Below the pieces are notes generated by a model. The model worked only from the letters and a program-made list of their open reading frames with translations, did not search any database and had not been told where the DNA came from. From NCBI GenBank assembly GCA_029258795.1, contig JAPDKB010000004.1:1-64000 (forward strand): a stretch of 64,000 nucleotides of DNA. The letters are read 5' to 3'. Of this stretch, positions 15,377-16,647 are shown piece by piece. Each line of letters opens with the position of its first letter. Positions within the stretch are counted from its first letter, which is position 1. The position numbers and the translations under genes are program-made. The stretch comes from an archaeon (GTDB lineage: Archaea; EX4484-52; WAPT01).

Positions 15377-15964
15377 ATGGTGTTTGGCTTTCTTTTTGGA
15401 AAGAAGGAAAAGCAGAACAAAAAGGATGAGCTCGAGGAGATAAAGAACCGTGTTCTGAGCACGGAAAACGCGCTGCACCAGCTTTCTGCTTACACTCAGG
15501 AGGAAATAACGAAAATCTATTCCTACCTCCATCAGTTACACACAGACATAGATGGAATTGCAAGTGTTGTTGACGAGCTCAAAAATGGAAGAGGTAATGA
15601 TAGTGGTGCTGCTATTTCCATCCTTCAGCAGAGGGTTGAGAGCCTTGAAAGGATGGCCGATAACCTTTCTATAATAGGCAGGGTCGCGCTGAAAAATCAT
15701 GAGAGGATAAGCAAGCTGGAAAGCAGGATAAATGAGATGCTTCTTGCGATAGACAGGCTTGTGGATGAGGTCATAAAGAACAGCGCCCAAGCAATAAGTA
15801 CTGAGGAAAGGAAGAAAGAGAAAGCCGAAAAAAAGGAGGAGACAGAAGTGAAGGCTGAGGTGAAAAAGGAGGAGAAGAAAGGGAGGATGTCGAAGGAGAG
15901 GGAGTACCTTGCTGAACTTGCAAGATTGAGGAAAGAACTCGTGGAGCTAAAAACATTCAGCTAA
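15377..15964 (+). CDS. Coiled-coil protein with N-terminal FLFG-KK motif
   Basis: A 195-residue protein of no family I recognise. It starts MVFGFLFGKKEKQNKKDEL, a short hydrophobic segment followed by lysines. Heptad-rich helices follow (about 15-130), then a highly charged Lys/Glu linker (about 133-175), and a final helix. The start resembles that of the winged-helix coiled-coil protein at 39835 (MGLLSFLFGNKK), so the two may share a membrane- or protein-anchoring N-terminal motif. It is divergent from the PolD large-subunit gene and shares its promoter region. It is probably cytoplasmic or peripherally membrane-bound; function unknown. Confidence 0.75.
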   Translation: MVFGFLFGKKEKQNKKDELEEIKNRVLSTENALHQLSAYTQEEITKIYSYLHQLHTDIDGIASVVDELKNGRGNDSGAAISILQQRVESLERMADNLSIIGRVALKNHERISKLESRINEMLLAIDRLVDEVIKNSAQAISTEERKKEKAEKKEETEVKAEVKKEEKKGRMSKEREYLAELARLRKELVELKTFS

Positions 15965-16024
15965 TGTCGAGTAAAATTGGGGATGGTGTAGGAAACATTT
16001 ATAAATGATGAAATTCGAACATAC

Positions 16025-16315
16025 TTACTGAGGTAATTGCCATGGCGGCTACCCCGAAAACAAAACATTACAGGATGTTCTTTAAGAAGTGGGTAGCCGT
16101 TGGAATGTATCTAATTCCCGGATGCTCCACAGAATAAATCCGGGATGACTCCACATCTCTTCTCATGGGGTGTGGACGACCGGAGGAGGTTGGTGTGCTG
16201 ATCTTCTCGGATGGAATTGATTCGGAGGGTGGGGGTCTGGAGGAGAGAAGGTACACACCCCCCACCGTCCGAGCCCGATTTTCCTCTTTTCCACATGTAG
16301 AAGTGGTGACCCTAA
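16025..16315 (+). ncRNA. Structured RNA of unknown family (about 290 nt)
   Basis: The 450 bases between the coiled-coil gene and the next small ORF have no convincing coding potential but fold strongly. Helices by eye: CGGCTACCC (16046-16054) with GGGTAGCCG (16091-16099); TCCCGGAT (16116-16123) with ATCCGGGA (16138-16145); CCACATC (16151-16157) with GGTGTGG (16169-16175, one G-U); CTCGGA (16206-16211) with TCCGAG (16268-16273), enclosing a G-rich strand (16228-16236) paired to ACCCCCCACC (16257-16266); and CCAC/GTGG (16291-16305). The G-U pair would be A-C on the other strand, favouring plus. TATA-like CATTTATAAATG ends about 25 bases before the start. I see no SRP, RNase P or tRNA signature. 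Ends are approximate. Confidence 0.6.
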
Positions 16316-16416: not shown

Positions 16417-16647
16417 ATGCGCGTGTCGATGGTTGAGCTGATTGTGGATGCCAAAATGGAAGATGTGGAAAACGCTTTGAAAAACAGCGAGTTTGTGGAT
16501 GATTTTGAAATAGAACCTCTTGACAAGGAAGACGTGCGAAAAAGCGTGCTGATAGTTTTCAAGGAACTGGTGGATTCCAAATACCTTGATGAGGTTCTGC
16601 GCAAAATCTTTCCGTTTGAGGAGATAAAGAAGGGCTTGGAAGAATGA
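16417..16647 (+). CDS. Small conserved-looking hypothetical protein
   Basis: A 76-residue acidic protein (MRVSMVELIVDAKMEDVENA) that I do not recognise. It has alternating beta-alpha character: a hydrophobic strand, a helix with the acidic run MEDVENALKNSE, then LIVFKELVDSKYLDEVL. It could be a small ferredoxin-like or ACT-like fold, which is a guess. The start at 16417 lies about 25 bases after the TATA-like CTTAAATAAG (16386-16395); an in-frame start seven codons upstream is possible. It converges on the PolD small-subunit gene, whose stop lies three bases beyond. Confidence 0.6.
   Translation: MRVSMVELIVDAKMEDVENALKNSEFVDDFEIEPLDKEDVRKSVLIVFKELVDSKYLDEVLRKIFPFEEIKKGLEE

Follow-up and report, generated by a model that had tools for sequence, protein, structure and literature searches.

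What kind of RNA, if any, is encoded between the PolD subunit genes of this archaeon? The window (the whole stretch of DNA analyzed here, 64,000 nt) comes from contig C4 of an archaeal genome of 1.17 Mb (G000); among named public genomes, its nearest relatives are DPANN (Nanobdellati) metagenome-assembled genomes. An earlier note had proposed a structured RNA at 16025-16315, either a divergent housekeeping RNA or a new family. Based on the lack of a match to Rfam, on covariation, and on orthologues and paralogues that mostly have TATA-like boxes of their own, we favor the second possibility, and we are highly confident that RNA A, as we refer to it, is a real RNA of a new, previously uncatalogued family. 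The best explanation overall, which we consider probable, is that it is an independently transcribed structured RNA of this new family and a putative L7Ae-nucleated RNP.

RNA A is flanked by a coiled-coil ORF (15377-15964) and an 83-aa ORF, and genes for the PolD large subunit, the PolD small subunit and Orc1/Cdc6 surround the locus. The TATA-like element TTTATAAAT (15998-16006, plus strand) lies ~25-30 nt upstream of RNA A and is aligned and conserved in both sister species (G001 and G002), in agreement with the previous description of such an element at the right distance; an additional TATA-like box lies between RNA A and the 83-aa gene. With regard to the neighbors, the coiled-coil protein starts with MVFGFLFGKKE, is encoded divergently from PolD DP2 and had no family above the cut-off, and a similar ORF (LFGKKE) lies 5' of the RNA in genus g6 of family f6. 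The other neighbor (16420-16647) is a conserved protein of 75-83 aa adjoining PolD DP1 that has no Pfam or NCBIfam match; by eye, it has relatives at the same place in f6, and it is convergent to the RNA in genus g11. Elsewhere in the window, the GC skew passes from negative to clearly positive between 46000 and 54000.

Using the covariance models of Rfam 15, we found no match at gathering score anywhere in the window; weak matches in the region of A were chance-like (E 0.4-6), and the homologous elements in the loci of eight relatives also gave no match. This check, which the earlier note had called for, thus revealed no strong match to a known family. Because of its size, A had been compared to SRP and RNase P RNA, the conserved cores of which had not been seen in it. 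Consistently, the same genome encodes an archaeal RNase P RNA (RF00373; C5:23597-23919, 134 bits) and an archaeal SRP RNA (RF01857; C2:91079-91355, 139 bits), while neither model matches at RNA A. Although these two RNAs resemble A in size, in having their own promoter and, in part, in having L7Ae as a partner, each lies at its own locus elsewhere in the genome, and therefore A is neither of them nor a divergent version of either. A search of the literature on DPANN noncoding RNAs returned nothing relevant.

A small ORF, competing helices and a kink-turn

The whole-strand fold of RNA A has a minimum free energy of -111 kcal/mol (z = -2.8) that is equaled by 3 of 100 shuffles. By itself, this energy is mildly unusual, and it is the comparative evidence that is decisive. 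Among the modules, z-scores are lowest for the ORF segment with helix P1 (-3.9) and for helix P2 (-3.3), and about -1.8 for the others. P1 (GCGGCUACCCC / GGGUAGCCGU; 16045-16055/16091-16100, plus strand) contains GGCUACCC and GGGUAGCC, which are invariant across three species, while P2 (UCCCGGAU / AUCCGGGA; 16116-16123/16138-16145, plus strand) has a near-invariant loop, GCUCCACAGAAUAA, the end of which is the stop codon of the ORF. A third hairpin at about 16182-16208 is not conserved. P2 and the outer stem of the kink-turn described below use one strand in common and are mutually exclusive, so all helices cannot form together. Thus, the row of at least five helices originally proposed has a stable fold and its helices are where they were described, but the picture is too simple.

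We also found that the locus does not lack an ORF, as had been claimed. A probable small ORF of 31 codons (MAATPKTKHYRMFFKKWVAVGMYLIPGCSTE*; 16042-16137, plus strand) is preceded by a Shine-Dalgarno-like GAGGT (16030-16034, plus strand) 7 nt before the ATG, and all three species share this motif, the start, the stop and the C-terminus (IPGCSTE); the corresponding predicted products are MAATHIHLNLWKFCKWVAKVMYIIPGCSTE in G001 and MAATHTHLNPWKFCKWVAKFMYIIPGCSTE in G002. Net indels are whole codons (multiples of 3), and changes peak at third positions (14 of 28 compared with G001 and 13 of 29 compared with G002). Between G001 and G002, there are 3 synonymous changes in 18.7 sites versus 3 non-synonymous changes in 74.3 sites. 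Because the counts are low and these bases are also under constraint from RNA helices, the support is modest, and we judge it somewhat better than even that 16042-16137 is coding. Read-through of the TAA stop was also considered: by inspection, G000 and G002 have an open frame beyond it; however, in G001 the frame is shut after ~25 codons, and we rejected this possibility. Two minor observations concern the same segment. On the minus strand of 16068-16265, there is an antisense ORF of 65 aa, to which an antisense ORF in G002 is partly similar, probably due to conservation of the sense ORF. A 20-nt stretch elsewhere in the genome (C2:102722-102741, locus L041, minus strand) nearly matches the end of the small ORF (E = 0.047), which may be due to chance; it reads ATG-GGA-TGC-TCC-ACA-AAA-TAA (MGCSTK*) and lies ~25 nt after a TATA-like TATTTAAAG.

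Using BLASTN, we detected A in the two remaining genomes of the genus (72-73% identity, same gene order) as well as a second locus, paralogue B, in all three. In the window's own genome, the neighbors of B are a divergent winged-helix regulator on one side and a radical-SAM gene on the other, and the latter is 3' of B in all three genomes. B starts with an 8-codon ORF (MAPGLDRA/MAPGLGRA) with an SD-like motif. BLASTN matches outside the order were rejected: they are short, visual inspection suggests coding sequence in the case of G046, and the matches to positions 250-270 of the query fall on the pyrimidine-rich tail. A match in the window's own genome, at C5:53855, lies on this tail as well.

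A and B have just two stretches in common, i.e., a kink-turn and a 3' terminal hairpin with its tail. The kink-turn hairpin of A (16139-16184, plus strand) has a C-stem (UCCGG/CCGGA), the bulge GAU, tandem G.A/A.G pairs and an NC-stem (UCCACA/UGUGGA), and the bulge lies 6 nt 3' of the stop of the small ORF; across A and B, this distance is 5-6 nt. Based on sequence and covariation, C-stem, 3-nt bulge, tandem G.A pairs and NC-stem are present in both A and B (UCCGG-GAU-GA-C-UCC...GGA-C-GA-CCGGA in A0 and UUCGG-GAU-GA-G-ACC...GGU-U-GA-CCGAA in B0), with a shared core, CGG-GAU-GA...GA-CCG, that follows the ORF stop codon. In alignment A6, the eight stem pairs of the kink-turn are standard in 95.8% of cells, and three pairs change on both sides. 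The covariation score was reached by 1 of 500 shuffles, a count that is not a probability because the set comprises only six sequences in two groups; upon sliding of the partner columns as a control, pairing was 24-56%.

The terminal hairpin and its copies in family f6

The terminal hairpin of A (UUCGGA-G-GGGUGGGG ... CCCCCACC-G-UCCGAG; 16221-16273, plus strand), which in both A and B ends with UCCGAGCCCGAUUUU, was followed with models R1, R2 and R3 and alignments A5, A7 and A11. It is succeeded by a conserved tail, CCCGAUUUU (16274-16282, plus strand), that is identical in A and B save for the length of the U-run, reads CCCAAGU(U/A)U in f6 and is probably the 3' end of the RNA. A scan for intrinsic terminators found none, and the U-run starts ~5 nt past the stem rather than at once. 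For the comparisons that follow, we note that the genomes are assemblies, many of them incomplete, that E-values are rough because calibration was short, and that the left arms are poorly aligned between families in the MAFFT alignments.

R1, built from the six genus sequences and run over the PolD DP1 and radical-SAM loci of genomes of the same order, matched intergenic sites in f6 (E = 0.017-0.44) beside a 75-aa relative of the 83-aa ORF. The pattern CCNTCCGAGCCCRANTNTT occurs in exactly one copy in each of eight f6 genomes and always on the DP1 contig. R2, built from the DP1-type (A) copies of f6 only, with matches resting on sequence and the outer stem, identified f6 paralogues with E-values from 4.8e-9 at best to 1e-3, and its best match in the window's own genome was B (E = 0.16); R3 added further paralogues. 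Altogether, the f6 hairpin is present at both syntenic places, i.e., in the DP1 neighborhood and at acd/Taw3-wHTH, and at others. Four copies (L162, L163, L164 and L173) lie beside B-type neighbors, namely an acd-type ATP-grasp gene or Taw3 with a divergent wHTH gene (Taw3 and ATP-grasp being our own reading of the sequences), while L168, L159, L160 and L167 are divergent from an HTH-CBS regulator. Two or more paralogues are present in the genus and in most of f6, and TATA-like boxes lie upstream of most copies. Because two orthologous groups are common to two families, we conclude that the copies are inherited vertically and are not a mobile element.

The kink-turn core occurs in nine copies (three of A, three of B and three f6 "q" copies), compared with 30 four-pair chance cores in 128 kb of strand. 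The f6 copies with a core at the place of B read GGG-GAU-GA...GA-CCC (L162, L163) and GGGG-GAU-GA...GA-CCCC (L164). No kink-turn is present in the A and p copies of f6 or in genus g11 (q copies), nor, apparently, in f3. With regard to small ORFs, L162 and L163 have one of 11 codons before the kink-turn and some p copies have MP*, while several copies (those of f3 and L173) have no ORF. As neither kink-turn nor ORF is in every copy, the hairpin and tail make up the core of the family.

Function and alternative readings

To our knowledge, L7Ae is universal in archaea. In the case of A and B, we see an even chance that L7Ae binds the kink-turn and nucleates an RNP, in which a second partner would bind the terminal hairpin at its asymmetric internal loop; transcription would stop at the U-run. 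Because the kink-turn is missing from many copies, L7Ae binding cannot account for the function of the family as a whole. More speculatively, translation could act as a switch: the final codons of the ORF contain the 5' arm of P2, and P2 uses a strand of the kink-turn outer stem, while in B a predicted leader helix (GGCACC.../...GGUGCC) would share bases with the NC-stem. Because a ribosome at the stop codon would open these helices, translation could favor or block the kink-turn and, in this way, decide whether the RNP forms. We give such a translation-coupled switch between a P2-type helix and the kink-turn a rather slim chance, and it is doubtful that the family represents a novel kind of archaeal RNP RNA that goes back to the ancestor of the DPANN order, is kept in two or more paralogues and couples ribosome activity to RNP assembly via tiny-ORF translation.

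There are precedents for parts of this scheme. Archaeal L7Ae binds kink-turns in mRNA leaders, including the l7ae 5' UTR and the nop5-fibrillarin transcript (PMC5539422). As in those leaders, the kink-turn here is near a start or stop codon and translation could be affected; however, here it comes after the stop of a tiny ORF. The kink-turns of the Pyrococcus abyssi RNAs sRkB and sRkC have been shown to bind L7Ae (PMC3124441). Compared by description, these RNAs are also intergenic archaeal noncoding RNAs (~210 nt), repeated in the genome, with kink-turns and with a neighboring start codon that forms part of a stem; in contrast to A and B, they have two kink-turns, are described as specific to P. 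abyssi and are discussed beside an IS605/IS200-type ORF (PMC3124441), whereas the copies described here are inherited vertically and in synteny.

An alternative with a small but appreciable chance is that the locus is an mRNA element: a leader peptide encoded by the small ORF would be followed by a U-run-containing structure, either an attenuator or part of a 3' UTR, that controls this ORF or the gene downstream of it. The conserved SD and ORF in A, the SD-like motif and 8-codon ORF in B, the short ORFs of L162, L163 and some p copies, and the mutually exclusive helices fit this idea, as do f6 A copies that lie 2-20 nt past the stop codon of a protein gene in several genomes. However, genus g11 has the downstream gene in convergent orientation, an ORF is entirely missing from several copies, the neighbors of the paralogues are unrelated, and a TATA-like box separates A from the 83-aa gene.

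That A is an aberrant box C/D or H/ACA modification guide RNA is improbable. Like the archaeal guides, the family has a kink-turn, in which GAUGA/GA resembles boxes C and D, a hairpin with an internal loop that resembles a pseudouridylation pocket, and several copies per genome. However, there was no Rfam match even at relaxed thresholds, the tail (CCCGAUUUU / CCCAAGUUU) has no ACA box, and C' and D' boxes paired with the single C/D-like kink-turn were not seen. Moreover, the internal loop lies ~13-17 pairs above the base of the lower stem, while an H/ACA pocket is expected about 14-16 nt above the ACA box, and its left side is common to the paralogues and does not vary as guides do. Finally, it is highly improbable that the locus functions as DNA rather than RNA, for instance as an inverted repeat of a replication origin close to orc1/cdc6 and PolD. 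In favor of this reading, A is a GC-rich inverted repeat that lies between the PolD subunit genes and adjoins orc1/cdc6. Against it, the kink-turn is asymmetric and strand-specific, the TATA boxes are on the 5' side, the 3' U-run never changes strand, the paralogues are far from orc1/cdc6, and GC skew has no clear turn at 16 kb.

Relatives in other families of the order

As far as seen, the family is confined to one DPANN order. DPANN archaea have very small genomes, and an RNA kept in at least two copies at fixed places across families therefore probably does a needed job. The family is absent from Rfam and yields usable seed alignments, and it lets one test whether, in addition to the known guide RNAs, RNase P and the ribosome, further RNPs are organized by L7Ae.

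Families f3 and f4 contain RNAs of the same plan, which start with GGUUGGGU, end with ACCYAAUCCAGG and consist of an outer stem, an asymmetric internal loop, the left side of which tends to AAAUAANNUYC, an inner hairpin of 4-5 bp and an A/U-rich right side. Compensatory changes affect 6 of the 17 pairs within f3/f4; together with the kink-turn stems, these hairpin pairs provide the covariation among relatives that had been suggested as a check. R3 scores linking f3/f4 to f6 are weak (E 0.007-0.7), and, given these scores and the shared plan, it is likely that the f3/f4 RNAs belong with those of f6. In G003 of f2, there is a pattern match 3' of a coiled-coil ORF, while f5 and f7 gave nothing convincing. 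Outside the order, there was no credible match: a search of 198 genomes with R1 yielded two weak ones (E about 0.02-0.03), and the f3/f4 pattern matched about as frequently as its reversed control. A pattern scan of viral contigs was negative. In G022 (L208:1390-1575), one TATA box is apparently followed by a tandem of two hairpins with this plan, and some family members may thus be two-hairpin RNAs.
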